From contig CP036296.1 in the NCBI GenBank assembly GCA_007751255.1, forward strand, positions 6,138,001-6,202,000: a DNA stretch of 64,000 bases, read 5' to 3'. This stretch comes from Engelhardtia mirabilis. GTDB taxonomy: Bacteria; Planctomycetota; UBA1135; GCA-002686595. Of the stretch, positions 4,698 through 53,216 are shown piece after piece. The notes under the pieces were generated by a model, which was given only the letters and a program-made list of their open reading frames with translations, was not told the DNA's origin and searched no databases. Made by a program: the position numbers and the translations under genes. Every line of letters begins with the position of its first letter. The first letter of the stretch is position 1.

Positions 4698-5228
4698 TCA
4701 CAGGTCCAGGTCGAAGGTCGCGCGGGACGCGATCCCGCCGCGCACCACGTCCACGTGGAGCTGCCAGAAGCCGGGCATGTGGAGCAGCATCCCCTCGACG
4801 CGATAGTGCCCCGCGCCCAGCTCGGTGGTCTGCGGCACGTAGTTCATGCCGTGGCCATGGTCGGGCATGAAGGCCGAGACGCCCACCTCGGCGCCGGTGA
4901 CCGGCTCGGCACCGTCCAGGAGCTCCAACTCGAGGGCGAAGAGGCGGTTGGTGGGTGTCTCCCCTTCGACCCCGCGCCAGCGCACCCGCGTCGCGCCATC
5001 CAGGGTCAGCCCGGAGTGCCAGCCCTCGGCGTCGGCCGTGAGCAGGCCCGTGCTCGGCATCGACTCGGGCCGCCGCGCCCCGCAGGTGCAGGGGTCCCCC
5101 GGGCAGGCGCACTCCGCGCCCTCGCAGGCGCAGGCCGCCGACCCCGCGCCGCCCCCCCCGCCGGGTCCGGCACAGCCGATGACGATGGCGATGGAGAGGA
5201 CACCCAGCAGCGGTCGAAAGTCGGTCAT
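4698..5228 (-). CDS. YtkA/FixH-like lipoprotein with three CxC motifs
   Basis: A 176-residue lipoprotein. The signal ends IVIGC and a Gly-rich tether follows. Then comes an unusual Cys cluster at about residues 33-49 in which CAC, CAC and CTC are each separated by four residues (CACEGAECACPGDPCTC). The C-terminal ~110 residues resemble the YtkA-like beta-sandwich: SAFMPDHGHGMN, then G-H-Y-R-V-E-G and LLHMPGFWQLHV. The His/Met-rich motif is a plausible copper site in this family. The stop is 2 bp from the start of the MauG-like peroxidase, so the two very likely form one transcript and may work together in metal or redox chemistry. The partner role is inference. Confidence 0.75.
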   Translation of the reverse strand: MTDFRPLLGVLSIAIVIGCAGPGGGGGAGSAACACEGAECACPGDPCTCGARRPESMPSTGLLTADAEGWHSGLTLDGATRVRWRGVEGETPTNRLFALELELLDGAEPVTGAEVGVSAFMPDHGHGMNYVPQTTELGAGHYRVEGMLLHMPGFWQLHVDVVRGGIASRATFDLDL

Positions 5229-5298
5229 GGAGAAGTCGAGGTTGCGCGCCGCTTAGGATGGTCGGCCAACGCGCCGCCGCGCCCCGATCGAATCGCCC

Positions 5299-8133: not shown

Positions 8134-9683
8134 GCGTGGTTCAGCACAGTCCGCGCGGCAGCCTCGCCCGAGCGATCTCGGCCCTGACGCTGGTCGCCGC
8201 AGCGGGCTGCTCCGGAGCCGAGCCGCCCCCGGCCGTCATCGACGAAGTGCCCCATGCACCCAGCGTGCGTCCGACCGACGTGGTGCTGTTCGTGGTCGAC
8301 ACCCTGCGCGCGGATCGCCTGGGGATGTACGGCTACGAGCGCCCGACCAGCCCACGGCTCGACGCCCTCGCGGCCGGTGGCACGCGCTTCGCCGACGTGA
8401 CCTCCCAGTGCTCGTGGACCCAGCCGTCCATGGCCTCGATGGTCTCCGGCCGCTACCTCACCACGCAGATCTACGCGCCCGAGGCCGACGCCGTGAATCT
8501 CGCTCAGGCCTTCTCGGAAGCCGGTTACGCGACACTCGGCTTCAGCGCCAACATCCTCTTGACCGACCGCTCCGGCTTCGGGCGCGGCTTCGATCACTAC
8601 GACGCGCGACCGTCGCGGCGCTCCAGCGATGAGATCCTGGCCGCACGCGAGTCCGACGAGCTCCTGGAGGACGCCTGGCCGGTGATCGAGGAGGTACTGC
8701 AGGACCCCGACCGCCCGCCGCTCCTGCTCTACATCCAGACCTTCGAGCCCCACTCGCCCTACCGCGAGCAGCGGCAGTGGCTCGACGAGCTGCCGGTCGA
8801 CGCCCAGCGCATCGAGGCCGACACCCGCCCCCTGCGCGAGCTGTTCCGCGACCTGACCGAAGGCCAGGGGCGGCCGGCTCGCGGTTGGACGTCGGACTGG
8901 GCCAACATCGGCGACGGCCGCGCGCGCTACGAACGCGAGGTGCGCGAGACCGACCGGATCCTCGGCGACCTGGTCGACCGCCTGCGGGCGACGGGCCTGG
9001 CCGAGGACGCGACCTTCGCCCTGGTGGCCGACCACGGTGAAGGCCTGTGGGAGCGACCGACGCCCCTGCCCGAGGACGCCCCGGCGAGCATGCACCGCCC
9101 CACCCACTTCCTCTACCAGGAGCACGGCGCCCACCTGGCCCCGGAGGTGCTGTTCACCCCCATGGTCCTGTGGGGAGCGCGGGTGCCGGCCGGCCTCGTG
9201 GTCGAGCAGCCGGTGGAGAACATCGACCTGTACCCGACCCTCCTGGCCCTGAACGGGATCGAGCGGCCCGCGGGCCTCGACGGGCGCGACCTGTTCGCGG
9301 GTGAATCCGCGCCGCGCCCCTTCGCCTTCTCGGTCTCCCTGCGCGGCGAGCGCGTGCGCGAGTTGGCCACCGACCTGGCCCTGATCCGCGTGCACCCGGA
9401 CCGGGTGGTGCCCGGGATCCGGCTCTACGACCGCGCCGTCGACCCCCACGAGCGGGTGGATTTGGCGGACCAGCGGCCCGAAGACGTGGCCCGCTTGGTC
9501 GCGGCCCTGGACGCCTGGCGCGCCGAGAACCCGACCGTCGACCCCCAGAGCGAGGGGCTGGATTCCGACCAGCTCGAAGCGCTCCAAGCCCTGGGCTACG
9601 GCGAGTTTCAGATCGGCGCCCGAGCCGGCGGTGGAGCGGCTGACGCGCCCGCCGACCCGACCGCGGACGACGGCCCGCCCTGA
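8130..9683 (+). CDS. Sulfatase/alkaline phosphatase-superfamily lipoprotein, Thr at the nucleophile position
   Basis: A 517-residue protein. The ATG at 8130 overlaps the preceding stop and gives a lipoprotein signal ending VAAAGC. The sulfatase fold is clear: VVDTLRADRLGMYGYERPTS near residues 55-75 with metal ligand D57, and ADHGEG with D301-H302. The motif that is CxPSR or SxPSR in classical sulfatases reads T97-Q-P-S-M here, so no formylglycine can form. Families with a Thr in this place are usually phospho- or alkylphospho-transferring or uncharacterised members of the superfamily. It is probably a periplasmic hydrolase or transferase; substrate unknown. Stop is followed at 9729 by a hairpin. 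Confidence 0.82.
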   Translation: MSVVQHSPRGSLARAISALTLVAAAGCSGAEPPPAVIDEVPHAPSVRPTDVVLFVVDTLRADRLGMYGYERPTSPRLDALAAGGTRFADVTSQCSWTQPSMASMVSGRYLTTQIYAPEADAVNLAQAFSEAGYATLGFSANILLTDRSGFGRGFDHYDARPSRRSSDEILAARESDELLEDAWPVIEEVLQDPDRPPLLLYIQTFEPHSPYREQRQWLDELPVDAQRIEADTRPLRELFRDLTEGQGRPARGWTSDWANIGDGRARYEREVRETDRILGDLVDRLRATGLAEDATFALVADHGEGLWERPTPLPEDAPASMHRPTHFLYQEHGAHLAPEVLFTPMVLWGARVPAGLVVEQPVENIDLYPTLLALNGIERPAGLDGRDLFAGESAPRPFAFSVSLRGERVRELATDLALIRVHPDRVVPGIRLYDRAVDPHERVDLADQRPEDVARLVAALDAWRAENPTVDPQSEGLDSDQLEALQALGYGEFQIGARAGGGAADAPADPTADDGPP

Positions 9684-10532: not shown

Positions 10533-11395
10533 TCAGTCCTGACCGTCCTGACTGCTGTCGGAGAAGGGGGCGAGGTGGCAGTCGTTGTCCGCGTTTGGTC
10601 CGTAGCTCCCCGGATTCCCGCAGTCGGCGTCGGCTGCGTACCCGGCCTCGCTCTGGACTCCGCAGTTGTCATCGGCCTACCACCTCGTGCCGTCCGCATT
10701 GGGCTGGTTGCAGATCAGGTCGGTGTGCGTCGTGTTCCCAGTGGGCTTCCCGCGATCGAGGTCCTTCCATTTGCCAAAGATGCCCGGCTTCCCGCAGGTC
10801 CCGTCCTCGTAGGTCTTCCCGTCGTGTCCAGGCTTGGCGCAGGCCATGTCCTGGTTCGACTGGAAGTCGTTGACAGGCTGCGCACAAGCGTGGTCCCGGT
10901 GGTGCGCGCCTTGGGGACCGCCCCCCGTCGGCTTGCCACACATTTCGTCGCGTTGCTCGACGCTGGGATCGGCCCCGGCCGGGCTTCCGCAGTCGATATC
11001 TGAGTGGAGGGTGCCCTCACTCTCCTGACGACCACAGTCGTTGTCCCGGCTGAACCCCTGTCCCTGGGGCGTGGTGCAAGAGTTGTCCTTGTGCACCCCA
11101 CCTCCCTCGCCGCTAGGCATCGCGCAGTCAAAGTCCGGGGAGTTGGCGCCGATGTTGCAGTCTGCGTCGGCGGAGAAGATCCCGTCGTCGTCGGGGATCG
11201 CGCAGTTCCCGTCGCCGTCCTGGGGTAGCGCGCCGGCAGGCACCGCACCGAGGAAGCTCACGGTCCGTTGGCAAGACCCAGGCCGAGGACCCCACGCAGG
11301 AAGTCCCGCCGCCCTCCGCGGCGTCCGGCACGGGGGCTGCAATCCTCGGACCCGACTCCGTCGGTCTGGCTCGACTCTTCGCTCGGCTGCTTCAT
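10533..11395 (-). pseudogene. Broken second copy of the Tat-exported DxxC-repeat protein
   Basis: This 863-bp region is a degraded paralogue of the intact gene at 11502-12377. The frame from ATG 11395 encodes a Tat signal (GGRRDFLRGVLGLGLAN). It then hits TGA at 11258 because one base is missing at 11265-11266: the intact copy reads GTG-ACC where this one reads GG-ACC. In the shifted frame 15 repeats follow, matching the intact copy unit for unit (first DGNC, last DNDC). A TAG at 10677-10679 interrupts unit 12, after which three more DxxC units continue in frame to a TGA at 10533. Unit 11 has DLDR instead of DxxC, a Cys-to-Arg change. Three separate lesions argue for decay after tandem duplication, rather than one sequencing error. 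Confidence 0.85.
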
Positions 11396-11501: not shown

Positions 11502-12377
11502 TCACCCGTCGTTCCCGGTCAACCCGCAGTCGTCGTCCTTGTGCAGGAGCGGGGGCAAGAACCCTCCGCCGGTCACATCGACCTTGCCGCAGTCGTCGTC
11601 CTGCGAGACCCCACCGGGGATCGGCTGCGAGCAGTCGTCGTCTCTGTGGACCATGTCCAGGAGCAGAGGCGTGCCACAGTCCTGGTCGGCGAAGATCGTG
11701 GGGCCGTTGGGCTTGGCGCAGTTCGAATCGTTGCAGAAGCCGATCCCATCGGGCTTCGTGCACGAGTCGTCGGCGTAGGTGCCACTCGGAGCCTTGGGCT
11801 TGCCGCACGACGCATCCTTGATCGTCTGGAACCCATTCGGGGCCGTGTTGCAGACCTCGTCCCGGAAGGTCGGTCCATTGGGATTGGGCGACACAGGGTG
11901 GCCACACATGCTGTCGCGCTGCTTCACCTCCGGGAAGCCCGGCGCCACGAGGCGGCAGTCCATGTCGGTTTGCAGCACACCCTCTTCGCCCTGCTTGGCG
12001 CAGTCGGCGTCCGAAGCGAAGCCTTGGCCATCGCCCAAAAACGTCGCGCAGTAGTCGTCCTGGTGGTAGATCCCCTCCGCGCTCTGCTTGCCGCAATCCA
12101 GATCGGGCCCGTGGACCCCGACCTTGCAGGCCGTGTCCTTGGAGTAGAAGCCGTCGTCATTCGGGATCGCGCAGTCGCCGTCCGCAGCGCCCCCCTGCAC
12201 CGAGGCTGCCGCTGGCACCGCACCGAGAAAGCTGATGGTCACGTTCGCGAGCCCCAGCCCGAGCACGGCGCGGAGGAAGTCGCGACGACCCTTTCCGGGC
12301 ACCTCGGGCGACTCTGCATTTGCGGCGGACCCATCCGAGTCCGGCTCATGCGGCTCTTCGTTTCGTTCTTTCGTCAC
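11502..12377 (-). CDS. Tat-exported protein of 15 Asp-x-x-Cys repeats, candidate radical SAM substrate
   Basis: A 291-residue protein I do not recognise as a named family. Residues 1-30 are hydrophilic, then R31-R32-D-F-L starts a twin-arginine signal with a hydrophobic core ending VPAAAS near residue 59. Everything after that is one tandem array: 15 units of 11-21 residues, each opening with D-x-x-C (DGDC, DTAC, DLDC, DDYC, DADC and so on, the last three DDDC), often followed by GKP or AKP and a Gly turn. C69 is the first repeat Cys and C284 the last; one extra Cys lies in unit 10. There is no other domain. The GTG start has a strong AGGAGG six bases upstream. It sits 39 bp behind a radical SAM/SPASM gene. 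I infer that it is modified in the cytoplasm, probably by Cys-Asp or neighbouring crosslinks, before Tat export. Chemistry and function are unproven. Confidence 0.8.
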   Translation of the reverse strand: MTKERNEEPHEPDSDGSAANAESPEVPGKGRRDFLRAVLGLGLANVTISFLGAVPAAASVQGGAADGDCAIPNDDGFYSKDTACKVGVHGPDLDCGKQSAEGIYHQDDYCATFLGDGQGFASDADCAKQGEEGVLQTDMDCRLVAPGFPEVKQRDSMCGHPVSPNPNGPTFRDEVCNTAPNGFQTIKDASCGKPKAPSGTYADDSCTKPDGIGFCNDSNCAKPNGPTIFADQDCGTPLLLDMVHRDDDCSQPIPGGVSQDDDCGKVDVTGGGFLPPLLHKDDDCGLTGNDG

Positions 12378-12383
12378 AGCCGG

Positions 12384-12389
12384 CCTCCT
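12384..12389 (-). promoter_or_regulatory. Strong Shine-Dalgarno site that fixes the DxxC-protein start
   Basis: CCTCCT on the plus strand is AGGAGG on the coding strand, six bases before the GTG start codon at 12377. Most genes in this window lack such a site, so it supports the GTG choice and suggests high translation of the repeat protein relative to the enzyme gene upstream. Confidence 0.75.
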
Positions 12390-12416
12390 GTAGGGATCGT
12401 CTCGGGAAGGTGTGAA

Positions 12417-13964
12417 TCAGGCCTCTGAGCGGTCGGCGGGATCCGACTCGACCTCGACGCGCAGGTCTTGGAGCCGACCGTGCTGGCGAAGCTTGTGGAC
12501 CAGGTAGATCAGGCGCTCGTGGCCCCCGCGGATGCCGTTGCAGGACTCTTCGTCGGGTTCGAGGATCGCGCCACCCTCGTCGGAGATGTACCAGGGACAC
12601 TGCCCGCCGCAGGTGATGCGCGCCCAACACTTGGAGCAGTGCTCCTCCTTGACGCCGAGCAGGCGGTCGTAGTAGTCGCGCAGCTTGGTCTCGTCGAGAC
12701 CGGTCTCCAGATCGCCGAGCAGGAAGGCGTCCTCACCGGCGTAGCGGTGGCAGGGGTAGATCTTCCCGTCGCGGGTGATCGCCTGCATGTTGCGCCCCAC
12801 GCCGCAGCGAATGCTCGGCGCGGTCGACGGGCCCTGCAGCGAAGGCAGGAACTGGGCGACGCCCTGCTCGAGGTTGTGCGCCTCGGAGGGACGCGGCCCG
12901 CGCCCCTCCAGCCAGGTCACGTAGGCCGCGATCGTCTGATCCGAGGCATCGCGCGTGCGCTGGTTGTCCTGCGGCGTCAGGTCGAACTCGTCGTTCTTGT
13001 TGGCCCGTCCGTTGCTGGATCCGAGCATCACCCGACCGAAGCCCTCACTGCGCAGATAGCTCTCAACCGCGGCCCCGTCGCTGTTCTGATGGGTCAGCGT
13101 GACCCGCACCATCGCCTCGCGCAGGCCCGCGGCCCGCTGGGCCTCGACGAGCTTCTTACCCCACTCGATGGCCTTGGCGCCGGTGCCGCGTCCGCCGAGG
13201 TCGACCCGGTGGCGATCGTTCAGTTCCGGCGGTCCGTCGATACTGAGCATGACCGAGAACTCGTGCTCGACCATGTAGGCGATGATCTCGTCGGTCAAGA
13301 GCGTGCCGTTGGTGGTGACCTGGTAGTAGAAGGCCTTGCCGGTCTCGGCTTCGCGCGACTTCGAGTAGTCGACCAGGCGCTTGATCAGGTCGAAGTTGAG
13401 CAGGGGCTCGCCGCCGAAGAAGGTGATCTCGACATCGGGGCGCCGACCGGAGCGCTGGATCAAGAACTCGATCGAGCGCACGCCAGTCTCGTAGTCCATG
13501 CCCGTTCCGGTCGAGTGAAAGCCGCTCTGCACCTCGTAGCAGTAGGTGCACTTGAGGTTGCAGTTGGACTGCACCATCAACATCATCTTGCGCGGGTGGT
13601 GCTGCACCAGGCTGTCTGCGACGAGTCGCTCGATCTCGGCGACGCGACTGGTGTCCTCGGTGCGCAACAAGCCGGCGCTGTGGAGCGTCTCGAGCTCGTC
13701 GATCAGGAGCTCGACGTCGTCGTCGTCCCAGGCCGACAGGCGGGCGCGGACCTCGCCGGCCGGCTCGCGCAGCTCGATGCCGCGCAGCACCTGGAAGAAG
13801 GGCTCGCTGACCTCGAGCACCGAACCCGTTAGCAGGTCGTAGACCAGGTGGTCGCCCGCATAGGTGAAGGCGTGGAAGCTGGGGCGCTTCCCGGGCAGCA
13901 TCGACTCGGCGAGGGCGGCGATGCGGCTCTCGACGACGGTCGTCGGCAGGATCTTCTCGATCAT
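12417..13964 (-). CDS. Radical SAM/SPASM peptide maturase (QhpD/SCIFF-maturase type)
   Basis: A 515-residue enzyme. Residues ~30-120 form a leader-recognition-like domain (FTYAGDHLVYDLLTGSVLEV, then a helix pair ending SAGLL) as in SCIFF-type maturases. The radical SAM cluster is C135-x3-C139-x2-C142 in CNLKCTYCYE, with the GGEP motif (FFGGEPLL) following. The C-terminal SPASM domain has the full cysteine set: C387, C405, then C443-x2-C446-x5-C452-x3-C456, and C475, which hold two auxiliary [4Fe-4S] clusters. Known relatives make Cys thioether bonds to Asp/Glu or other carbons in substrate peptides (QhpD, ranthipeptide enzymes). The gene 39 bp downstream encodes 15 DxxC repeats, the obvious substrate. 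The specific bond type cannot be read from the sequence. Confidence 0.9.
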   Translation of the reverse strand: MIEKILPTTVVESRIAALAESMLPGKRPSFHAFTYAGDHLVYDLLTGSVLEVSEPFFQVLRGIELREPAGEVRARLSAWDDDDVELLIDELETLHSAGLLRTEDTSRVAEIERLVADSLVQHHPRKMMLMVQSNCNLKCTYCYEVQSGFHSTGTGMDYETGVRSIEFLIQRSGRRPDVEITFFGGEPLLNFDLIKRLVDYSKSREAETGKAFYYQVTTNGTLLTDEIIAYMVEHEFSVMLSIDGPPELNDRHRVDLGGRGTGAKAIEWGKKLVEAQRAAGLREAMVRVTLTHQNSDGAAVESYLRSEGFGRVMLGSSNGRANKNDEFDLTPQDNQRTRDASDQTIAAYVTWLEGRGPRPSEAHNLEQGVAQFLPSLQGPSTAPSIRCGVGRNMQAITRDGKIYPCHRYAGEDAFLLGDLETGLDETKLRDYYDRLLGVKEEHCSKCWARITCGGQCPWYISDEGGAILEPDEESCNGIRGGHERLIYLVHKLRQHGRLQDLRVEVESDPADRSEA

Positions 13965-20712: not shown

Positions 20713-23700
20713 CTACTCCACGCCCAACTGCAACTCGATCGAGTTCCCCGCCAGGTCGGGCGCGTACATCGCGGCGGCCGTCGCGGGCAGGGCCGCGAAG
20801 GTGCCGGGCGTCTGGGCGCGCAGGGTCGTGCGCAGCTCCCAGGTGCCGGCGGGCAGGCGGTCGATGAAGCTGACCACGCGGGTGTCGCGCAGCTCGCGGT
20901 AGACCCATTGGGACCGGCCGGTGTAGCCGACGCCAGCAAGCGGTTGGCGGTCGCCGGTGGTCTGTGGCAGGGCCAGGGGGTCGTCGCCGAAGCGCTGGGC
21001 GACTTCGTCAGCGCGCAGCTCCTGGGCCCAGGCGGGGCCGCCGGAGGTGAGCTCGACGGCTTCGAAGCCGGCGGCCTTGTGGTCCTCGACGATCACGTAC
21101 TCGAGGGGCACGCGGGTGTGGAGGGTGACCACGACTTCGACGCGGTCGCCGCTCGCGACGACGTCGCCGTGGGCCAGGGGCACGCGCTCGAAGACCGTGC
21201 CGGCGAGGAGCGTCTCGCGCGGCGCCAGGTGGAACACGTCGCGGCGCACGACCAGCTCGTTCGCGCGGGGCGCGATGCGCTCCTCGATCGAGAAGGTGCG
21301 GGCGGTGACGTGCCAGTAGAGCCGGCGCGGCGGGCCCTGCTGCTCGAGGGCGACCACGTGGCGACCCTCGCCGAGATTGCTCACGGGCCAGCGCAGGGGC
21401 TGGATCCACGGGCGCGACGGGTCGAAGCTGCCGCCGCCGATCTCGGTGCCGTCGACCAGCAGGCGGAACTCGCCGGGCGCTTCGAGCTCGCCACGGGCGC
21501 GCACGGCGTCGACCAGGGCCAGCACGCAGATGGCCGTGTCGCGGGTGCTCTTCCAGCGGGCGCCGCGGCGGTTCAGCACCAGCCATTCGATGGCCGGCTC
21601 CACCAGCGCGTTGTCGGGGTCGACCGCCAGGAGCGCGCGCAGGGCGAAGGCCGTGGCCTCGGTCCCGTCCTGGCTCCAGCGGTAGCCGATGCCGTCGTCG
21701 CCCCAGTGGGCGGTCAGTCGACCGCTCGCAGCGATGCCGGGTTGCAGCACCCCGCCGCTGCCGTCCTCGCGCACCACGCCGTCGGCGAGGTTCCGAAGCA
21801 GCACGGCGGCCTGCTCGTCACGGCCCAGGTCGTGGGCCGCGAGCAGGAGCGCGGCCAGGCCGTAGGCGCCCAGGGACTGGCGACCCGAGTAGGTCAGGTC
21901 GAAGGCGCGACCCACGGCCTCGCTGATCTGCAGCTTCGCGCCGCCCGCGTCCTCGAGGCTGCGGCGAGCCGCCGCCCAGGCGTGCAGCTCCCAGGCGCCG
22001 AGTTGGGTGTCGGCCTCGGTCTGCACCAGTCGTTGCTCGAGCCAGCGCGCGCCGTTCTCGATCGCCCCGCGCGGAACGTCCACACCGGCGTCCAAGGCGA
22101 GCGCCAGGGACCACACCGCGTAGCCGGTCATGAACGCGTCCGCGCTGCCGCCGGGCCACCAGGAGAAGCCCCCGTCGCCGCGCTGCATGGACAGCACCCG
22201 CTCGAGACCGTCCGCGACCATGGCGTCGATCTTGGGCAGGGTGGCCTCGCGCTCGGTGTCGGGGGCGCGCACGTGGCTCGGCGGATCGAAGGTCGACCTG
22301 GCGACGGCTTCGCGGTCGAAGCCGAGCTCCTCGAGCGCGCCCAGGGCCACCACCGTCGGCACGAAGCGCGACAGGGTCTGCTCCAGACAGCCGTAGGGGT
22401 AGTCGGCCAGGTAGGGCAGGGCCGCGATGGCCGTGCTCGCGAGGCTCGGCGTGATGACCACGTCGACGGCGGTCGAGCCCGGCCGCGCCGGCGGCAGGTC
22501 GACGACCAGCTCCGCGCGCTCGGAGTCCGCGACCCCGGCCGCGGCGATGACCACGTCCAGGCCGTGCTCGATCACCGGCAGGATGCGCTCGATGCCGTCC
22601 GAGCGCTCGGATGAGGCCACCATGGCCATGAACTTCGCCTCGCCCGCGCCGCCGGCGCGCACGAGCCAGTCGACCGTGACCTCGGCCCCGGCCGGCACCG
22701 TGACCATTCCAGCCTCGCTGTCCACGACCCCACCTGCCAGGGGCCCGACGATCTGCGCCGCGTCGAAACCGGCGATCGGCGTCGTCAGGAGGACCTGACA
22801 GGGGATCGCCGCGTCGGTGTCGTTGCGCACGAGGGTCGAGACGACCGCTTCGTCGCCGGCCACCAAGAAGCGCGGCGTCGCCAGGCGCAGGAGCAGCGGC
22901 AGGGTCGTGCGGGCCGCCGAGCGGCGCTCGAGGCCGAAGGACGAGTGCTCGTCGCAGGCCACCGCGCCGAGCTTCCAGCGCGTGGTCGAGTCGGGCCAGG
23001 TGAACTTCAACTGCGCCGCTCCGTCAGCGTCGGTAACGACGTCCGCGTCCCACAAGGCCGTCTCGCGGAAGTCGACGCGGACGCTTGCAGTCGGCGTCCC
23101 GGCGCCAGCGAGGGCGAAGAACTGGACACCCGGAGGCCCGGCGAGAGCCATGTCTCGACTCATCGCGGGCGTGGCGGACTCGGCGTAGCCCAACCGCTCG
23201 ATTCCCTGGCCGAGGAAGAAGTCGGAGTCACCGGCTTCCCGGCCACCGACTCCTGCGCGCACCTTCCTCGTCTCGTACTGCACCCCCACCGTGTCGCCGG
23301 GTCCGCGGTAACCCTGCGCCTCGCGCTCCGACCGCCAACCGAACTCGTCGGTCAGCTCGAAGCGGCCGTAGGCGTTGCGCTCGAAGCTGGTAGCGCGCGA
23401 CGCCCGCCACCAGGAGCTCTGGCCGAAGTAGGTCAAGCGCGGATCGCCCGACGCCTCGGCCGCGATCGCCGTGAGCGACTCGTCGAACAGGGTCACCGAC
23501 AGGTGCGACTCCACCGGCTCGCCGGCGTGGTCGCGCACGGTCAGGTCCAGCGTCGCCACGTCACCGGGCTCGTAGACCTCGCGGTCGAGCTCGGCGTCGA
23601 TCGCCAGGACGTGCTGCGCCGGCGGCACGACCAGCGTCTCGCTGTCCGTCAAGAGCTGCCCGTCCTGCACCGCGAAGATGCTCAGGTACGTCTGCGGCAC

Positions 23701-26634
23701 GTGGCGCTCGGCCAGGGGCAGGGCCACCAACTTCGCCGTGCCGCCGATCCGCAGCACGCGCAGCTCGAGCTCGCCGCGGGTCTCCACCGCGAGCAGCACC
23801 GCGCGCCGCGAGCGGTCGGTGACGATCAGCACCTGGGCCGCCTCGCCCTCGGCGATGGCCTCGGCGTCCAGGAACAGCTCGATGCCGCCCGAGCGCAGCC
23901 CCACGTCGTTCGTGCCCTCGGTGCACACGATCACGCGCGCCTCGCCGACCACGCGCCCGCCGCTGCGCGGGTCCGCGGCCTCGAAGCGCACCAGGTAGGT
24001 CCCCACCCCCGGCGGCGTGGGCGTCCACTGGGCGCGGCCGTCGGGACCGGTGGTGAGCGGGATGCGCTGGATCTCCTGCTCGACGTCGTGGGGGAAGGTG
24101 AGGTCGGTGGGGATCCGCGGACCGAAGGCGTCGACCCACTCGACCTGGGTGTACGAGCGCACCTGGACCAGGCTCGCCGCGCCCTCCACCGACAGGGGAT
24201 TGCCGTTCGGGTCCTCCGTGATGACCGTCGCGTCCAGCGCCGCGCCGGGGCGGAACAGGCGATGCTCGGTCTCTACCCGCGCGCGGAAGGCGTGCTCGGC
24301 GACGAGGACCGTGCCGGTCCCGGTGACCTCGCGCCGCAGGGCGTCGGTGACCCGCGCCTCGACGGTGAACTCCCACTCGCCCGAATCCAGGCCGAAGGTC
24401 TCGAAGGCCACCTGGGCGCGACCGGCGGCGTCGGTCACCGCGCTCGTGCGTTGGACCTCCTCGCCGCTCCCGCCCCACCAATAGTTGTTGTTCTGCTGGC
24501 CGAGTCCGCGCTCGAACCAGGCGTAGGGGCCGCGCGGCGTCGGCAGGGACCAGTGCTGCTGGCGGCGCACGACGAACTCGACCTCGGCCCCGGCGACCGG
24601 CGCGCCCGCGTAGGTCGCGGCGACCACCTCGGCACGCACCTCGTCGCCGAGCACGAAGACCTCGGCGCGGCCGTCGTCGTCCTCGGGCAGCTCCACGCTG
24701 ACCTCGAACTCCGGACGCACGTACTCCTCCAGCCGGAACAGCTCGGACTGGCCGATCTGGCGGTCGCCCTCGAGGAAGCGCAGCTGGTAAGCGCCCAGGG
24801 TCTGGTCGACGGTGGTGGCGAAGGAGCCGCTGGCGGTGCCGAAGGTCGACAGGTCGAGCTCGCCGCTGGCGACGACTTCGCCGCGCGGGCCGTAGATCTC
24901 CCAGCGGGGCGCGCGGCCCACGGGCGGCTCCCAGGTGCCGTCCTTCGACAGGACCCGCGCCATGACGGAGAAGTACACCTCGTGCCCGGGCCGGTAGGCG
25001 GGGCGATCGGTGGTCACGTGCAGGCCCCACTCGGCCGGATCGGGTCGGGCGCTCGAGAAGAGCACGCTGTAGGCCGGCCCCGAGTCGGTCGACACGAAGG
25101 CCAGGATCTGGGTGTTGCGCGCGTCGCCCACGTCGATCCGCGCGAGGCCGTCGCCGTCGGCGGTGGCCCAACGCTCGCGCCAGACCCAGTCGCCGCCGTC
25201 GACGCGACAGCGCGCGCGCACATCGAAGCGCACCCCGCCCAGGGGCTCGCCGTCGGTGGCCCTGGTCGCCCACAGCCACAGGTCGCTGGCCGCGGCGTGG
25301 GTCACGAGCGCGGCGTCGGTGACCAGGATCAGCTCGCGTTCCTCCACGCCGCCGGCGCGCGCCACCAGCACGTACGCGCCGAGCTCCGGCGCCGGGTCGA
25401 GTTCCAGGTTCGCGTCGCGCCGACGGTAGTCGCCCACGTCGCCGGTCGCGTAGCTCCACGCGCGCTCGGGCGAGCGGCCCTTCACGTCGACCTCGCTCAA
25501 CCAGCTCCAGGGCGATTGGTCCGAGGCGTCGAAGTGGACGTCGCGGGCCGGATCGATGGGATAGAGGGCGAACTCGACCGCCTCCACGTTGCGCGTCTGG
25601 ATCCCGAAGCCCACCTGCGACCCGGGCAGGAACGCGCCGGGGGTCCACAGTTGGACCGAAGGTCCGGTCAGATCCCCGAGTCGATTGTTCGCGCCGTTCC
25701 ACCAGCGCGAGGAGTCCTGGCTGTAGTCGCCGCGCAACTGGCGATAGAGCGCGACGGCGCCGACGAGGTCCACCTCCAGCTCGAAACGCCCCTCCTCGTC
25801 GCGCGTGAAGCGACCGACGTTCTCGAGGTGCTGCGCCAGGGCCCACAGGGCGTCGTCGTGGGCGCTGGTCGCGCGGCCGATGGCGATGACCTGCTCCAGG
25901 TGCTCGATGGCCCGCGCTTGCTGCCGGGGGGTGCTCGCGACTTGCAACCCGAGGTGCGCCAGCACGAGGTGCGCGCGCCCGCGCTCGTCGTCGCCGCGCA
26001 CGAGGCGCAGCGCCTGCTCGGCGAGCTCGATCGGGATCTGTCCGCGGCCGTAGCCCGTGTCGAAGTCACCCGGGGCCCAGGGCGGCTGGGCCAGGCGCCA
26101 GAAGATCGACAGCCAGTGCTCGCGCGCCCGCTCGAGGTCGGACGAGCGCCCCCACCACTCGAGCGCCGCCGTGTAGTCCGCCAACGCCGGCCCGATGTTC
26201 CAAGTGCGCGTCCGGGCCCAGTCGAGGTCGCCGAGGGATTCGCGCGCCATGGCCCAGACCAGGTCGCGGTCCTCGACCCGCGTGTCCGCGGGCGAGAGCA
26301 CGCGCAGCGTCTCCCGCGCCGCGTCGATCACCGACGTGTCGCGCGTGTTCGCGGCGGCGCGCCAGCCGCTGTCGGCCAGTCCGAGCTCCAACCGGCGCCG
26401 CTGGGCGTCGGTCAAGTCCAGGTCGCCCGACTCGGCCTGCGCCTCGATGGCGCGCCACACGTCGTGGGCCGCGGCGTCGCTGCCCTCCGCGGCGAGCGCC
26501 TCGGCGCGGCGTACCTGGCTCTCCAGGTCCCACTGGAGCGGGCGCGTCGCCGGGTCGGGCGTGGCGAGGCCGAGGGCGGCGAGTCCGACCAGGGTCGAGA
26601 TCAGGGCGAGGGCGATGGCGATTCGTCGGAACAT
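20713..26634 (-). CDS. Bacterial alpha-2-macroglobulin family protein with thioester
   Basis: A 1973-residue exported protein. MFRRIAIALALISTLVGLAALGLA is a signal peptide or anchor without a lipobox (quoted here in part: core ALISTLVGLAALGLA). The N-terminal ~350 residues are helical and tetratricopeptide-like. Macroglobulin beta-domains follow (TDRPAYRPGHEVYFSV, DLTVRDHAGEPV). The thioester motif G-C1416-L-E-Q1419 lies in YPYGCLEQTLS, and an alpha/alpha-toroid complement-like domain surrounds it. Such proteins trap proteases by bait cleavage and covalent capture. The usual neighbour of the E. coli form, pbpC, is absent. This is the longest gene in the window and sits convergent to the hydrolase gene. 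Confidence 0.9.
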   Translation of the reverse strand: MFRRIAIALALISTLVGLAALGLATPDPATRPLQWDLESQVRRAEALAAEGSDAAAHDVWRAIEAQAESGDLDLTDAQRRRLELGLADSGWRAAANTRDTSVIDAARETLRVLSPADTRVEDRDLVWAMARESLGDLDWARTRTWNIGPALADYTAALEWWGRSSDLERAREHWLSIFWRLAQPPWAPGDFDTGYGRGQIPIELAEQALRLVRGDDERGRAHLVLAHLGLQVASTPRQQARAIEHLEQVIAIGRATSAHDDALWALAQHLENVGRFTRDEEGRFELEVDLVGAVALYRQLRGDYSQDSSRWWNGANNRLGDLTGPSVQLWTPGAFLPGSQVGFGIQTRNVEAVEFALYPIDPARDVHFDASDQSPWSWLSEVDVKGRSPERAWSYATGDVGDYRRRDANLELDPAPELGAYVLVARAGGVEERELILVTDAALVTHAAASDLWLWATRATDGEPLGGVRFDVRARCRVDGGDWVWRERWATADGDGLARIDVGDARNTQILAFVSTDSGPAYSVLFSSARPDPAEWGLHVTTDRPAYRPGHEVYFSVMARVLSKDGTWEPPVGRAPRWEIYGPRGEVVASGELDLSTFGTASGSFATTVDQTLGAYQLRFLEGDRQIGQSELFRLEEYVRPEFEVSVELPEDDDGRAEVFVLGDEVRAEVVAATYAGAPVAGAEVEFVVRRQQHWSLPTPRGPYAWFERGLGQQNNNYWWGGSGEEVQRTSAVTDAAGRAQVAFETFGLDSGEWEFTVEARVTDALRREVTGTGTVLVAEHAFRARVETEHRLFRPGAALDATVITEDPNGNPLSVEGAASLVQVRSYTQVEWVDAFGPRIPTDLTFPHDVEQEIQRIPLTTGPDGRAQWTPTPPGVGTYLVRFEAADPRSGGRVVGEARVIVCTEGTNDVGLRSGGIELFLDAEAIAEGEAAQVLIVTDRSRRAVLLAVETRGELELRVLRIGGTAKLVALPLAERHVPQTYLSIFAVQDGQLLTDSETLVVPPAQHVLAIDAELDREVYEPGDVATLDLTVRDHAGEPVESHLSVTLFDESLTAIAAEASGDPRLTYFGQSSWWRASRATSFERNAYGRFELTDEFGWRSEREAQGYRGPGDTVGVQYETRKVRAGVGGREAGDSDFFLGQGIERLGYAESATPAMSRDMALAGPPGVQFFALAGAGTPTASVRVDFRETALWDADVVTDADGAAQLKFTWPDSTTRWKLGAVACDEHSSFGLERRSAARTTLPLLLRLATPRFLVAGDEAVVSTLVRNDTDAAIPCQVLLTTPIAGFDAAQIVGPLAGGVVDSEAGMVTVPAGAEVTVDWLVRAGGAGEAKFMAMVASSERSDGIERILPVIEHGLDVVIAAAGVADSERAELVVDLPPARPGSTAVDVVITPSLASTAIAALPYLADYPYGCLEQTLSRFVPTVVALGALEELGFDREAVARSTFDPPSHVRAPDTEREATLPKIDAMVADGLERVLSMQRGDGGFSWWPGGSADAFMTGYAVWSLALALDAGVDVPRGAIENGARWLEQRLVQTEADTQLGAWELHAWAAARRSLEDAGGAKLQISEAVGRAFDLTYSGRQSLGAYGLAALLLAAHDLGRDEQAAVLLRNLADGVVREDGSGGVLQPGIAASGRLTAHWGDDGIGYRWSQDGTEATAFALRALLAVDPDNALVEPAIEWLVLNRRGARWKSTRDTAICVLALVDAVRARGELEAPGEFRLLVDGTEIGGGSFDPSRPWIQPLRWPVSNLGEGRHVVALEQQGPPRRLYWHVTARTFSIEERIAPRANELVVRRDVFHLAPRETLLAGTVFERVPLAHGDVVASGDRVEVVVTLHTRVPLEYVIVEDHKAAGFEAVELTSGGPAWAQELRADEVAQRFGDDPLALPQTTGDRQPLAGVGYTGRSQWVYRELRDTRVVSFIDRLPAGTWELRTTLRAQTPGTFAALPATAAAMYAPDLAGNSIELQLGVE

Positions 26635-26726
26635 GGCTGGTAGAGGGGACCGGGTGCGGCTCCGGCGTGCAACGTCACAGGGCGTACCTGTGTTGGGACG
26701 CCCTTGCAGCTAACCTCTCGGACAGC

Positions 26727-46843: not shown

Positions 46844-47506
46844 TCAGCGGTGCCCGAAAACCCCGCGCACGTGGCGCTCGAGGTGGGCCTCGAGCAGGGG
46901 GTCGTCGGCCGGGACCTCGGCCAGGTCGGCCACCCGCCCCATGACCCCGGGTTCCAGCCCACAGGGTCGGAAGCGCTCGAAGCCGGCCAGATCGTTCGAG
47001 ACGTTCAGGGCCAGGCCGTGCCAGGTGACCCAGCGGCGCACGGCCACGCCGATGGAGCAGACCTTGTGGCCGCCGGCCCAGACCCCGGTCAGGCCCTCCC
47101 GCCGCTCGCCCTCCACGCCCAGGTCCGCCAGGGTCCGCAGGACGACCTCTTCGAGGTCGCGCAGGTAGGCGTGCAGGTCCCGCCGGCCGAGCGGCAGGAG
47201 GAACAGGGGGTAGGCCACCAACTGCCCGGGTCCGTGCCAGGTGGCCTCGCCGCCGCGCTCGATCTCGACCAGGGGCAGGTCGAGCCCGTCGGCCGCGCCC
47301 TCGGGAGTTCGGCGACCGAGGGTGACGACTTCCGGGTGCTCCAGCAGCAGCAGCTGGTCGCAGACCTCCCCGGCTGCCCGCTGGGCGACCAACTCCTGCT
47401 GCAGATCACGCGCGCGGGCGTAGTCGAACCGCCCCAGCCGCCGAACCTCGAGCTCGGGACCCAGGGGCGGCCGGGGCGTCGGCGGTGTCGCCGGTCCGCC
47501 CGTCAC
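46844..47506 (-). CDS. lipB: Octanoyl-[ACP]:protein N-octanoyltransferase
   Basis: A 220-residue enzyme that moves octanoate from acyl carrier protein to the lipoyl domains of 2-oxoacid dehydrogenases, the first step of lipoate synthesis. Family motifs are all visible: ERGGEATWHGPGQLVAYP, the catalytic Lys K148 in GGHKVCSIGVAVRRWVTWHG, and catalytic Cys C182 in FRPCGLEPGVMG. Length is normal for LipB. Its start overlaps the lpdA stop by 4 bp, and lipA lies in the same gene cluster, so lipoylation and its target complex are made together. Confidence 0.94.
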   Translation of the reverse strand: MTGGPATPPTPRPPLGPELEVRRLGRFDYARARDLQQELVAQRAAGEVCDQLLLLEHPEVVTLGRRTPEGAADGLDLPLVEIERGGEATWHGPGQLVAYPLFLLPLGRRDLHAYLRDLEEVVLRTLADLGVEGERREGLTGVWAGGHKVCSIGVAVRRWVTWHGLALNVSNDLAGFERFRPCGLEPGVMGRVADLAEVPADDPLLEAHLERHVRGVFGHR

Positions 47507-48906
47507 TCGGGCTTCTGGTAGATGTGAACGGCCATGCGGTGCACCGCCTCGGCGGCCTCCATCATGGCCTCGGGCAGGGTCGGGTGGGCGTGGATCGTGC
47601 GCGCCAGGTCCTCGGTGGTGGCGCCCATCTCGATCGCCAGGGCCGCCTCGGCCACCAGCTCGGTGACCTCGGGCCCGACCATGTGGACCCCGAGCACCTC
47701 GTCGGTCTTGGCGTCGGCCACGATCTTCACGAAGCCGTCCGTCTCCATCAGGCTCATGGCCCGACCGGACGCGGCGAAGGGGAACTGGCCGGTGACGACC
47801 TCGATGCCCTTGCTCTTGGCCTCGTCCTCGAGCATCCCGACCGAGGCCATCTCCGGCGCGGTGAAGATCACCGCCGGTACGCAGCGCACGTCGTAGCGCT
47901 CGTTCTGTCCAGCGATCACCGCTGCGGCGACGAGGCCCTCCTTGCTGCCCTTGTGGGCCAGCATGGGCTGACCGGCGATGTCACCGATGCAGTAGATGTT
48001 CGGGACCTTGGTCCGCATCTGATCGTCGACGGGGATGAAGCCGGGCTTCTCGGTCGAGAGGCCGACCTTGTCCAGGCCCAGGCCCTCGGAGAAGGGCTTG
48101 CGACCCACGGTGCACAGGATCTGGTCGCACTCGATCACGCGCGACTTGCCCTCGACTTCGATGCGGACCTCGAGGCCCTTCTTCTTGGCCTCGTAGCCCT
48201 TGGCGAAGGCGTTCGCGATGAAGTCGATCTTCATCTTCTTCATCGAGCGCTCGATGACCTTCACGCAGTCGCGATCCTGGCCGGGGAGCGCACCCGCGGT
48301 GGCCTCGACCACCGTGACCTCGGAGCCCAGCTTGCGGTACATCATGCCCAGCTCGAGCCCGATGTAGCCGCCGCCGATGACCAGGAGGCGCTTCGGCAGC
48401 GCCTTGGGCGCCAAGGCCTCGGTCGACGACCAGACGCTCTCGCCGAACTCGAACCCGGGGATCGCCAGGGGCACAGAGCCCGTTGCGATCACGATGTCGT
48501 CGCACTGGATGGTCTGCTTGCCGTCCTTGCCGGTGACGCTGACCGTGTTCTTGTCCACGATCGTCGCCGCGCCGTAGACCACCTCGCAGCCGTGGTTCTT
48601 GAGCAGGATGCCGACGCCGCCGGTCAGCTTGGCAACCACGCTGGCCTTCCAGGACACCAGCTTTTCCACGTCCAGGCTCATGCCCTCGACGGTCAGACCC
48701 AGGGCGCTGGCCTTGCCGATCTTGTCCATCAACGAACCGGCCGCGATCATCGCCTTGGAGGGGATGCAGCCCACGTTGAGGCAGGTCCCGCCCAGGGCGT
48801 CCTTCTCGACGACGGTGACTTGTTGGCCCAGTTGCGCCAGACGGATGGCGCAGACATAGCCCGCGGGACCGGCACCGATGACGACGACTTTGCGGCTCTT
48901 GGCCAT
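47503..48906 (-). CDS. lpdA: Dihydrolipoyl dehydrogenase (E3)
   Basis: A 467-residue FAD flavoprotein that re-oxidises dihydrolipoamide of the E2 subunit with NAD. The FAD site is VVVIGAGPAGYVCAIRLAQLG at the N terminus (GxGxxG with following acidic strand end). The redox disulfide is C42/C47 in GGTCLNVGCIPSKA. The NAD site is LLVIGGGYIGLELGMMYRKLG-like around residue 180 (GGGYIG). The C-terminal dimer interface carries the catalytic His-Glu pair in HAHPTLPEAMMEA. It is a standard-length family member located downstream of the E1/E2 genes and upstream of lipB. Confidence 0.96.
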   Translation of the reverse strand: MAKSRKVVVIGAGPAGYVCAIRLAQLGQQVTVVEKDALGGTCLNVGCIPSKAMIAAGSLMDKIGKASALGLTVEGMSLDVEKLVSWKASVVAKLTGGVGILLKNHGCEVVYGAATIVDKNTVSVTGKDGKQTIQCDDIVIATGSVPLAIPGFEFGESVWSSTEALAPKALPKRLLVIGGGYIGLELGMMYRKLGSEVTVVEATAGALPGQDRDCVKVIERSMKKMKIDFIANAFAKGYEAKKKGLEVRIEVEGKSRVIECDQILCTVGRKPFSEGLGLDKVGLSTEKPGFIPVDDQMRTKVPNIYCIGDIAGQPMLAHKGSKEGLVAAAVIAGQNERYDVRCVPAVIFTAPEMASVGMLEDEAKSKGIEVVTGQFPFAASGRAMSLMETDGFVKIVADAKTDEVLGVHMVGPEVTELVAEAALAIEMGATTEDLARTIHAHPTLPEAMMEAAEAVHRMAVHIYQKPE

Positions 48907-48945
48907 GGAGAGTGAGGAGGCTTCGGAGGTTGGAGCTTGGGTCCG

Positions 48946-49170
48946 CTACTCGCGCGGGATACCGAGCCAGAAGGCGGAGTAGACGAGCGGCGCCAGGAAC
49001 AGGGCCGGCAGCCAGAAGTAGGCGATCGGGGCGGTCACCAGGAACAGCCCGAAGAACACCGAACGCACCACGCTCACGTCCAGACCTGCGGCGCGCGCCA
49101 GGGCGGCGCACACGCCACCGAGCACGGAGCCTTGGCGAGGACGGAGGAAGGTGCGATCGGAGCGCGGCAT
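48946..49170 (-). CDS. Small PspC-domain membrane protein
   Basis: A 74-residue protein with the PspC signature: FLRPRQGSVLGGVCAALAR, then GLDVSVVRSVFFGLF and a hydrophobic stretch of two membrane-embedded segments. PspC proteins take part in envelope-stress sensing in other bacteria; here no other psp gene is adjacent. It lies inside the dehydrogenase cluster between E1alpha and lpdA, with 39 bp to lpdA, and may simply share the transcript. A much longer frame on this strand covers it, but only this part has a protein-family match. Confidence 0.78.
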   Translation of the reverse strand: MPRSDRTFLRPRQGSVLGGVCAALARAAGLDVSVVRSVFFGLFLVTAPIAYFWLPALFLAPLVYSAFWLGIPRE

Positions 49171-49313
49171 GGCTTGGTGCGGGAAGACTCTGTTCCGAGG
49201 GCTCAGGGCCGAGGGCTCAGGGCCAGAGACCGAGCCTCGTGCCAGGGAGGCGGCCCCGGGAATGCGGTACCCGGATTCGCAGGCCCCGGAATGGATGACT
49301 TGATTCGGCGCGA

Positions 49314-50435
49314 CTAGAGCGGGAAGGCGCCGTCGCCCTTCTGGGCCTCGCCGTGCTTCTCGGCGACGCGCAAGAAGTCGTTGTACTGGCGTCGCAGGTG
49401 CGTCGGGACCTCGGCGTAGATGTCCTCGACCAGCGAGCGCAGGGGCATGGGGTCGACGATCTCCTGGGCGTGGATCTCGGCATCGATGGTCGCTTCGTGG
49501 CGCGCGCGCAGGCCGGCCAGCCCGCCCTCGGGCAGCGAACCACGCTTGGTCAAGAGGCGCTCGAAACGCAGGATCGGATCCCGGTCGCGCCACAGCTCGA
49601 CCTCGGCCTCGTCGCGGTACTTGGTCGGATCGTCCGAGCTGGAGTGGCCCATCAGGCGATAGGTGCGCAGCACCAAGAGGGCCGGGCCGGCGCCTGCCCG
49701 GGCGCGACCGATCAAGGCCGCCATGGCCTCGTGCACGGCTACCGCGTCGTTGCCGTCGACTTGGAACCCGGGGATGCCGTAGGCCTTGGCCTTGGCGGCG
49801 TAGGACACGCTCGCGGTCTGGGCCGACGAGGGCACCGAGATCGCCCAGCCGTTGTCGACGCAGACGAAGACGCAGGGCGCCTGCCACACACCGGCGAAGT
49901 TCATGCCGCTGTGAAAGCCCGAGGAGCTGGTGGCCCCGTCGCCGAAGAAGATGGTGTGGACCTCGTCGGTGCCGCGCTGCTTGGAAGCGTAGGCAGCACC
50001 GACCCCGTGTGTGATCTGCGTGCCGATGACCGACGACCAGCTCGGGTAGTTGGTGCCCTTGTGCTGGAAGTGGTTGCACATCTGCCGCCCCTTCGCCGTG
50101 TCCATCGAGTTGCAGTACATCTGCGCGATGTACTCGGATAGCGGCAGCCCGCGCAGCAGGGCGGCGCCGCCCTCGCGCAGGCCCGACCACATCCAGTCCG
50201 TCGGGCGCATGGCCCGCGCCGCCCCGGCCATGGTGGCCTCGAGGCCCAGCATCGACCCCACGAAGCCGATGCGCCCCGCGCGCTGCAACTTGAGCATGCG
50301 CTCGTCGACGCAGCGCACGAAGAGCATCTCGCTGAACACTTCGTTCAGCCATGCGTCGTCGTAGCCCGGGAAGTCGGGCGACAACTCGCCGGTCTGGTCG
50401 ACGAAGCAATCGTGGATCTGCACGGTCGATTCCAA
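49314..50435 (-). CDS. 2-oxoacid dehydrogenase E1 alpha subunit (copy at the distal end)
   Basis: A 373-residue thiamine-diphosphate enzyme subunit. The ThDP motif runs from FFGDGATSSSGFHSGMN to VCVDNGWAISVPSS (GDG...N). The phosphorylation-loop-like segment MGHSSSDDPTKYRDEAEVE is of the branched-chain/pyruvate E1alpha type. It would decarboxylate a 2-oxoacid together with an E1beta subunit and pass the acyl group to the E2 lipoyl arm. It is a paralogue of the subunit encoded at 53371-54501, while the cluster has only one E1beta. It lies 50 bp after the E2 gene. Confidence 0.9.
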   Translation of the reverse strand: MESTVQIHDCFVDQTGELSPDFPGYDDAWLNEVFSEMLFVRCVDERMLKLQRAGRIGFVGSMLGLEATMAGAARAMRPTDWMWSGLREGGAALLRGLPLSEYIAQMYCNSMDTAKGRQMCNHFQHKGTNYPSWSSVIGTQITHGVGAAYASKQRGTDEVHTIFFGDGATSSSGFHSGMNFAGVWQAPCVFVCVDNGWAISVPSSAQTASVSYAAKAKAYGIPGFQVDGNDAVAVHEAMAALIGRARAGAGPALLVLRTYRLMGHSSSDDPTKYRDEAEVELWRDRDPILRFERLLTKRGSLPEGGLAGLRARHEATIDAEIHAQEIVDPMPLRSLVEDIYAEVPTHLRRQYNDFLRVAEKHGEAQKGDGAFPL

Positions 50436-50484
50436 GGGTGCGTCTCGAGGTTGGTCGGTTCGGAGGGAAGGGCCCGCTGCGGGC

Positions 50485-52143
<1,659 letters not shown>

Positions 52144-52241
52144 GGATGGTCGGTGGGGTGTTGGCCGAGGTGTCGGCCGTGCAGGTGTGCGGGCGGGGTG
52201 GGCGGACGGGGGCGGGCAGGCGAGGGCGGGCGCAGCCTGCG

Positions 52242-53216
52242 CTAATAGCGCGCGGTGCGCTCGATGGCATCGAGCACGCGGCGGGCGTCGGGCAGGTAGT
52301 GGTGCTCGAGGGTGTTGGGGAAGGGCGTGTCGAAGCCTGCGACGCGGGCCACGGGCGCTTCCATGTACTCGATGCAACGCTCGGCGATCATCGCGCTGAT
52401 CTCGGCGCCGAAGCCGCAGAAGCGCGGGGCCTCGTGCACGACGACCACGCGACCGGTGCGCTTGGCGGCCTCGATCACGCCGTCCTCGTCGAGCGGCAGC
52501 AGCGTGCGCAGATCGACGATCTCGGTCTCGATCCCGGACTCGGCCGCCGTGCGGGCCGCTTCCTCGCAGACCGCGACCATCGCGCCGTAGCAGAAGACCG
52601 TCACGTCGCCGCCCTCGCGCACCATACGCAGGGTGGACAGGTCGACGGTGTACTCACCTTCGGGAACCTCGCCCTTGATCTTGCGGTACAGAGCCTTGGG
52701 CTCCAGGAAGAGCACCGGATCGGGATCCTGGATCGAGGCGATCAGAAGCCCCTTCGCATCGTAGGGCGTCGACGGCACCACGACCTTGAGGCCGGGCGTG
52801 TGGCAGAAGTAAGCCTCGCCTGACTGGCTGTGGTATAGCCCGCCGCGGATGCCCCCGCCGAACGGCGTGCGGATCACCATCGGCGCCGTGTACTGACCGC
52901 CCGAGCGGTAGCGCAGCTTGGCCGCCTCACTGACGATCTGGTCGAAGGCCGGGAAGATGAAGTCCTGGAACTGGATCTCCGCCACCGGACGCAGGCCGTT
53001 CATGGCCATGCCGATCGCCGCGCCGACGATGCCGTCCTCGGAGAGGGGCGTGTCGAAGCAGCGGTTCTTGCCGAACTCCTTGGTCAGGCCCTCGGTGGCG
53101 AGGAACACGCCGCCCTTGGGGCCCACGTCTTCGCCGAACACGCAGACCGTGGGGTCGGCGGACATCGCGGTGCGCAGGCCGTCGTTGACGGCTTGGATCA
53201 GGGTCAGGTTGGCCAT
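52242..53216 (-). CDS. 2-oxoacid dehydrogenase E1 beta subunit
   Basis: A 324-residue subunit that completes the E1 active site with an E1alpha. Visible family features are VFGEDVGPKGGVFLATEGL, the catalytic-region DTPLSEDGIVGAAIGMAM, EIQFQDFIFPAFDQIVSEAA and the C-terminal VVVHEAPRFCGFGAEISAMI. Length is normal for the family. It is encoded between the proximal E1alpha gene and E2 and is the only E1beta in the window, so it could pair with either E1alpha. Confidence 0.95.
   Translation of the reverse strand: MANLTLIQAVNDGLRTAMSADPTVCVFGEDVGPKGGVFLATEGLTKEFGKNRCFDTPLSEDGIVGAAIGMAMNGLRPVAEIQFQDFIFPAFDQIVSEAAKLRYRSGGQYTAPMVIRTPFGGGIRGGLYHSQSGEAYFCHTPGLKVVVPSTPYDAKGLLIASIQDPDPVLFLEPKALYRKIKGEVPEGEYTVDLSTLRMVREGGDVTVFCYGAMVAVCEEAARTAAESGIETEIVDLRTLLPLDEDGVIEAAKRTGRVVVVHEAPRFCGFGAEISAMIAERCIEYMEAPVARVAGFDTPFPNTLEHHYLPDARRVLDAIERTARY

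Follow-up and report, generated by a model that had tools for sequence, protein, structure and literature searches.

Genes at the locus

The window analysed here is a 64,000-nucleotide stretch of Engelhardtia mirabilis DNA (contig CP036296.1 of assembly GCA_007751255.1, positions 6,138,001 to 6,202,000). Its minus strand carries a radical SAM/SPASM maturase gene, followed after 39 bp by the gene of a protein built of cysteine- and aspartate-containing repeats (Table 1). Both genes lie where the first-pass annotation had placed them, and the cysteine sets that it described as complete are confirmed by an alignment of 42 enzymes, in which C135, C139, C142, C387, C405, C443, C446, C452, C456 and C475 are invariant, as is R407, which adjoins C405. 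The remaining neighbours are a decayed copy of the repeat gene and an M20 peptidase gene; no qhp genes occur among the direct neighbours. The arrangement by which ranthipeptide loci are recognised, a maturase adjoining a cysteine-containing candidate precursor, is present in the window.

Table 1. Features of the maturase and repeat protein locus, in window coordinates
Feature	Position	Strand	Basis
Radical SAM/SPASM maturase, 515 amino acids	12417..13964	-	open reading frame (ORF), family profiles, alignment, structure model
RRE-like (PqqD-type) N-terminal domain, residues 30-96	13677..13877	-	structure model, CteB alignment
Radical SAM motif CxxxCxxC, C135/C139/C142	13539..13562	-	sequence, alignment
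Seven SPASM cysteines, C387-C475	12540..12806	-	invariant in alignment of 42
Cys/Asp repeat protein, 291 amino acids, GTG start, proposed substrate	11502..12377	-	ORF
Twin-arginine signal from RR31-32 (RRDFLRAVLGLGLANVTISFLGA...), motif L-x-[HN]-[FVI] as LANV	12204..12287	-	sequence
Repeat region, residues 66-291, 16 Cys-loop-Asp units	11505..12182	-	sequence
Tail past last Cys, GLTGNDG, residues 285-291: Asp, no Cys	11505..11525	-	sequence
Decayed tandem repeat-gene copy, frameshift and in-frame TAG at 10677-10679	10533..11395	-	sequence

The nearest solved structure to the enzyme is that of the thioether synthase CteB, which agrees with the likeness to thioether-forming enzymes proposed earlier. 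The structural alignment of the two spans residues 27-493, and few other alignment rows reach the RRE-like part, which is modelled as strand-strand-strand-helix-helix-helix. The enzyme scores 251.3 bits against the QhpD equivalog model TIGR03906, 241.5 bits against the PapB equivalog NF047865 and 247 bits against the SCIFF maturase model TIGR03974, below the respective curated cutoffs of 453, 340 and 425. R407 was considered as an Asp-binding signature (compare Arg372 of PapB) and rejected, because it is also kept in SCIFF-type and QHNDH-type enzymes and is present in one of the two patterns of the locus search. An additional Cys three residues past the first SPASM cysteine (CGVCRN, CGACRG) is found in L014, L017, L026, L030 and further enzymes, and is missing from the window enzyme.

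The repeat protein contains 16 Cys, of which 15 (residues 66-284) have an Asp three residues before them, C215 being the exception. These 15 D-x-x-C units, noted in the first-pass annotation, stand well above shuffled sequence: 20,000 shuffles of the mature part gave 2.4 such pairs on average and 9 at most. Read in the other direction, all 16 Cys have an Asp downstream of them ahead of any further Cys, the irregular stretch C206-D210, C215-D217 being no exception. No Pfam or NCBIfam model matches the protein at E<=1, and family searches with it, with the decayed copy and with two sets of ten related repeat proteins gave nothing above cutoff. A structure model of the lone repeat protein is not confident, with a predicted local distance difference test score of 47.6 from 17 sequences. 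The decayed tandem copy, which had been overlooked before, is 43% identical to the repeat protein and is disrupted by one in-frame TAG and by a frameshift within the signal-coding part, while an Arg replaces one Cys; a shorter relative of it without stops (P0002) is found in public data.

Recurrence of the gene pair

A Tat-type (twin-arginine translocation) Cys/Asp repeat protein lies nearby at all 17 of the best 17 enzyme loci, at 15 of them by the strict rule, while the partners at L012 and L022 were recognised by inspection (the repeat gene of L022 lies about 0.9 kb upstream). The pairing rule is satisfied by 8 of 8,971 background ORFs away from enzymes, and four of these 8 are themselves repeat genes from those enzyme clusters. 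In 392 genomes of the phylum, a repeat partner accompanies 7 of 7 enzyme matches at E<=1e-100. A repeat-protein profile run over these genomes detected 8 loci, which lie in 5 genomes; 5 of the loci are in cassettes with a full-length enzyme (two in the window's own genome share one enzyme). This search is not exhaustive, since at least two repeat genes known otherwise (G389, and the second on G103:C148) escaped it. We conclude from these sequence comparisons that enzyme and repeat protein, already thought to belong together in the first-pass annotation, are a real and recurrent enzyme-substrate cassette.

Among ORFs of at least 100 amino acids in 25 neighbourhood rows (24 distinct, since L016 and L134 are one locus), no further gene recurs throughout. 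FG-GAP repeat protein genes, in 5 rows, and protein kinase genes, in 4, are shared most often and were set aside as third components because they belong to large families and their positions vary. A shared exporter or protease was not seen in these neighbourhoods, where not every neighbour is annotated. Loosely Cys-rich ORFs were rejected as partners, being mostly noise in GC-rich DNA.

Several loci depart from the simple one-to-one arrangement. In a Kiritimatiellota record, two repeat proteins with D-x-C spacing lie downstream of one enzyme (L058:5823-6989 and 8455-9657). At L130 (G154:C22:14000-27000) two repeat genes lie by a partial enzyme stretch, next to an apparently duplicated unrelated gene, which may reflect real loss or an assembly fault. 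Short peptides rich in Cys and Asp, in which a Tat signal is not evident, occur by or near related maturases (L029:9647-9925, L049:12644-12970, L084:11379-11780), and this set includes a Thermococcus record.

In an enzyme tree of 65 rows, which excludes duplicates, fragments (L008, L019, L022), L088 (masked) and some other loci, the repeat-associated enzymes occupy one side (support 100/99) against QHNDH-type and SCIFF-type enzymes, and the SCIFF-type enzymes form a separate clade. The SCIFF and QHNDH labels come from taxon and motif, a QhpC being visible for four of the nine QHNDH rows (L057, L068, L082, L097). The window enzyme falls outside the QHNDH-type clade, split from it by a 100/99 branch. 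Enzymes with D-x-x-C partners (hereafter DxxC) form a group of 13 (99/97), a number that includes L031, which automatic typing assigns to this spacing. Their sister group (100/96) is paired with D-x-C (DxC) repeats instead, and is drawn from Chloroflexota, Actinomycetota, Verrucomicrobiota (including Akkermansia), Kiritimatiellota, Omnitrophota, Sumerlaeota, Myxococcota and some Planctomycetota. A repeat protein accompanies 26 of the 31 rows on the repeat-associated side; the other five (L027, L040, L052, L056, L064) form a gut subclade in whose available flanking DNA no Cys/Asp repeat protein was found. The same holds for all 12 gut-type loci, with 3-21 kb available for each, seven of them outside the tree and placed by motif likeness only.

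The repeat unit and the direction of the proposed bond

We favour, with moderate confidence, the reading that the maturase cross-links the neighbouring repeat protein, Cys sulfur to the next downstream Asp, before Tat export. The repeat unit on which this builds is a Cys, a variable loop, an Asp, two residues (DxxC) or one residue (DxC), and the next Cys. Between 5 and 42 Cys occur per protein, and the loop from Cys to the next Asp has a median length of 11 (5-95% range 5-15) in the DxxC set and of 7 in the DxC set. Literal CX3D arrays are present in some relatives (L011, L015, L017). In QhpC-like ORFs beside relatives of the enzyme, the spacing from Cys to the downstream acid is n=8, 5 and 7; we take the residues at these spacings to be the bonding pairs, Cys41-Asp49 of QhpC being the one named in the literature cited below. 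Left out of the following counts are duplicates, the decayed copy, L093 (which runs off its contig), the G254 gene and the second of the G154 genes, as well as L029, L050 and L084, which are not of this kind.

At the fixed position before Cys, Asp outnumbers Glu by 299:1 and 286:1 in the two spacing sets, though Glu is common elsewhere in the chains. This bears on the possibility that the enzyme performs some other radical chemistry, such as sactionine bonds to the alpha carbon of other residues, epimerisation or conversion of Cys to formylglycine, any of which would leave the conservation of Asp alone unexplained. Formylglycine formation also fits poorly with the 99.1 bits that the enzyme scores against the anaerobic sulfatase maturase model TIGR03942 (curated cutoff 349.45), and the sulfatase-type motif Cys-x-Pro-x-Arg was not noticed by eye in the repeats, for which no dedicated search was made. 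Among the alternatives we give this one the most room, and still regard it as unlikely.

The first-pass annotation had proposed a possible bond between each Cys and the Asp at position -3. Such small D-x-x-C rings would have a precedent in the N-x-x-C ring of NxxcA, in which Cys23 is bonded to Asn20 (PMC8326336, as far as that account describes it), and an Asp stands at this constant distance before 299 of the 314 non-first Cys. The phase of the repeats points the other way. An Asp precedes the first Cys at position -3 in 10 of 26 proteins, so that 16 first Cys would have no partner; the difference between first and later Cys gives p = 2e-12 in Fisher's test (earlier set, 25 and 310 Cys), a value that is not for independent rows because near relatives are included (P0001/P0002, P0003/P0127, L015/L017/P0129). 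In the DxxC set 335 of 341 Cys, and in the DxC set 307 of 318, have a downstream Asp that comes before any further Cys. After the last Cys, an Asp is present in 27 of 27 DxxC proteins, and D-x-x-C rings would leave it orphaned. As a set, the chain ends resemble a Cys-less half-unit: their context score is 75.9, compared with a shuffle mean of 36.9, and none of 1000 shuffles scores as high. Within the last six residues, 22 of 26 chains have an Asp (shuffle mean 16.5, equalled or exceeded in 72 of 5000 shuffles). We relied on the context test of the tails and dropped the simple presence of Asp, because shuffles often reach the latter: all of 20 DxxC tails have an Asp within 21 residues, but so do 140 of 2000 shuffles.

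The D-x-C spacing held by the substrates of the sister enzymes is a further argument against a D-x-x-C ring, as is the finding that PapB does not process the transposed order DSANCA (PMC9413430, in the experiments cited here). We weigh the alternation of Cys and Asp, the first Cys that often lacks an upstream Asp and the Asp-bearing half-unit at the chain end above the fixed spacing and the NxxcA precedent. The earlier direction is therefore probably wrong and its small rings are improbable; Cys is probably joined to the next Asp downstream. A disulfide or metal scaffold (for example with calcium bound by Asp), in which the enzyme acts on few repeats or elsewhere, would suit the Asp-rich DxDC units and the disulfides often formed by cell-surface Cys proteins, and is made very improbable by the odd number of Cys in 17 of 26 and 10 of 13 proteins of the two sets, the lack of any family match for the window protein, the close linkage of repeat and enzyme genes and the near exclusion of Glu from the fixed position.

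Export signal and proposed pathway

The window protein has the RR pair followed by a hydrophobic stretch that is expected of a Tat substrate, and TatC is present in the window's genome. The earlier description of a protein-sized substrate with a Tat-type signal stands. RR occurs in 39 of the 40 repeat proteins listed, in most of which the pair itself was used to place the signal. L018 and L021 match a Tat-signal model below its cutoff. The motif [LIVFAMG]-x-[HN]-[FVILAM] in the h-region was found in 28 of 40 repeat proteins, compared with 3 of the 28 ordinary Tat signals taken from relatives; it was picked after viewing the set and tested afterwards, and the matches in L011, L016, L022 and P0006 lie off the main position. 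The control comprises 28 signals from 30 TIGR01409 loci and replaces a first control that gave one sequence. By inspection, four Chloroflexota repeat proteins have a C-terminal hydrophobic segment with basic residues after it, which suggests a surface anchor.

We envisage that the radical SAM/SPASM enzyme acts on the repeat protein in the cytoplasm, where its RRE-like domain would recognise the N-terminal region, in which the Tat signal bears the additional motif. Each Cys sulfur would be joined to a side-chain carbon of the next downstream Asp, by analogy with QhpD and PapB the beta carbon, giving up to 16 predicted thioether loops, and the stapled chain would then leave through the Tat pathway. 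Its purpose may be that of a rigid exported or surface protein independent of disulfides. The Tat signal region perhaps doubles as the leader for the maturase, given the h-region motif, the leader that QhpC needs and the Sec signals of MNIO precursors as precedent. The Tat pathway prefers folded cargo. It is conceivable, though we put it forward as a tentative extension that may well fail, that a widespread class of proteins is built in this way, with chains of 5 to 42 Cys as strings of thioether loops, the Tat signal as leader, staples that replace a hydrophobic core for folding before Tat export, and a disulfide-free surface polymer as the product in bacteria of several phyla, among them the relatives of Akkermansia.

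A number of observations weigh against cross-linking to the downstream Asp followed by Tat export. The constant spacing is the two residues from Asp to the following Cys, while that from Cys to the next Asp varies, which on its face suggests a D-x-x-C pair; and a bond of the acceptor-x-x-Cys kind exists in NxxcA. Many loops of the repeat proteins are longer than PapB favours, its turnover being already incomplete at n=6 in the published assays cited below. Of 273 internal units, 160 have a Gly directly after the Cys, which the favoured model does not explain. Taken singly, no more than 9 of 26 tails score above 95% of the shuffles made from them; the tail of the window protein is not significant (89.6% of its shuffles score as high), in one of 13 DxC proteins the last Cys is not followed by an Asp, and the plain count of DxC tails with an Asp, 13 of 14, is reached by 557 of 2000 shuffles. 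The window protein matches no Tat-signal model, and the Akkermansia relative has no RR.

Co-occurrence had been proposed as a check in the first-pass annotation, with repeat genes routinely found away from a maturase as the result that would speak against it. The pairing of enzymes with repeat genes stood, and the reverse test goes weakly against it: of the 8 profile-found repeat loci, two (the G154 genes) adjoin a stretch that matches only enzyme residues 273-489, and one, the G254 gene on a 5.7-kb contig, has no enzyme on that contig or in the 70%-complete assembly at E<=1e-10. Only 26 of all 80 loci in the enzyme scan satisfy the pairing rule, the remainder being mostly SCIFF-type, QHNDH-type or other maturases, and the gut subclade without repeat partners stands near. 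The thioether step itself is a prediction from sequence.

Other genes of the window

Apart from this locus, the minus strand encodes a small ORF that resembles a lipoprotein and has a Cys-rich stretch, CACEGAECACPGDPCTCG, close to the N-terminus (4701-5231), a protein of about 1,970 amino acids with alpha-2-macroglobulin domains (20716-26709), and a pyridine nucleotide-disulphide oxidoreductase and a dehydrogenase E1 gene (47506-54810), where further ORFs are E1-type-like by eye.

Comparison with known systems

Thioether chemistry by radical SAM enzymes has so far been described for short peptides and a single enzyme subunit. The present gene pairs connect this enzyme superfamily, in several phyla, with entire repeat proteins that carry export signals. 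If the proposed bonds are true, this would be a genetically encoded stapling of long chains at many sites, a Tat signal would be shown to act as a maturase leader, and the action of a maturase along a many-site substrate would become directly testable. Among the open-licence papers listed, no title or abstract opening describes the pairing of such an enzyme with a Tat-type repeat protein or such a system in Akkermansia; the primary freyrasin and NxxcA reports, as subscription work, stand outside this scope. Of the papers that contain both "ranthipeptide" and "Planctomycet", eleven in number, PMC9902471 offers, in the parts concerned, gene-cluster annotation only.

Bufferins and other precursors modified by MNIO enzymes likewise carry export signals and can be long, but their signals are of the Sec type, their enzymes belong to another superfamily and work with partner proteins, and an alternation of Cys and Asp is not mentioned in the sections cited (PMC12452194). 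NxxcA has the geometry of the D-x-x-C rings, acceptor three residues before Cys, but a single bond and an Asn acceptor; CteA, the SCIFF substrate of CteB, is a short peptide in which Thr serves as acceptor (both as summarised in PMC8326336), and the SCIFF enzymes form a clade of their own, the window enzyme lying below their model's cutoff.

Closer in chemistry is PapB, which forms several Cys-Asp thioethers in a Cys-Xn-Asp array of the freyrasin-type ranthipeptide PapA; literal CX3D arrays are found in some relatives here. According to the assays cited, its Cys must precede the Asp, and n from 0 to 6 is accepted, incompletely at 0 and 6 (PMC9413430). PapA is unlike the window protein in being a short peptide with six bonds at n=3, and the window enzyme stays below the PapB cutoff. 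Ranthipeptide precursors, in which the thioether joins Cys to a beta or gamma carbon, are in general short, and their leader does not serve for export, whereas the window protein has 291 amino acids and a twin-arginine signal, and most relatives' repeat proteins are also protein-sized with RR.

The statement in the first-pass annotation that the system fits no described class is overstated, because QhpD has a protein substrate and NxxcA bonds Cys23 to Asn20. QhpD differs in that the window enzyme lies outside its clade, scores below its cutoff and has no qhp neighbours. In QhpC it forms three Cys-to-Asp/Glu thioethers, Cys41-Asp49 being the pair named in the text cited, compared with a possible sixteen here; the 28-residue N-terminal leader of QhpC, needed for QhpD, is removed by QhpE, and the protein exits via an ABC transporter (PMC7876137). 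QhpD and QhpC nevertheless share with the proposed pathway, as far as that source describes them, a radical SAM/SPASM enzyme, a protein substrate, Cys placed before the acid and a cytoplasmic step that precedes export to the periplasm.
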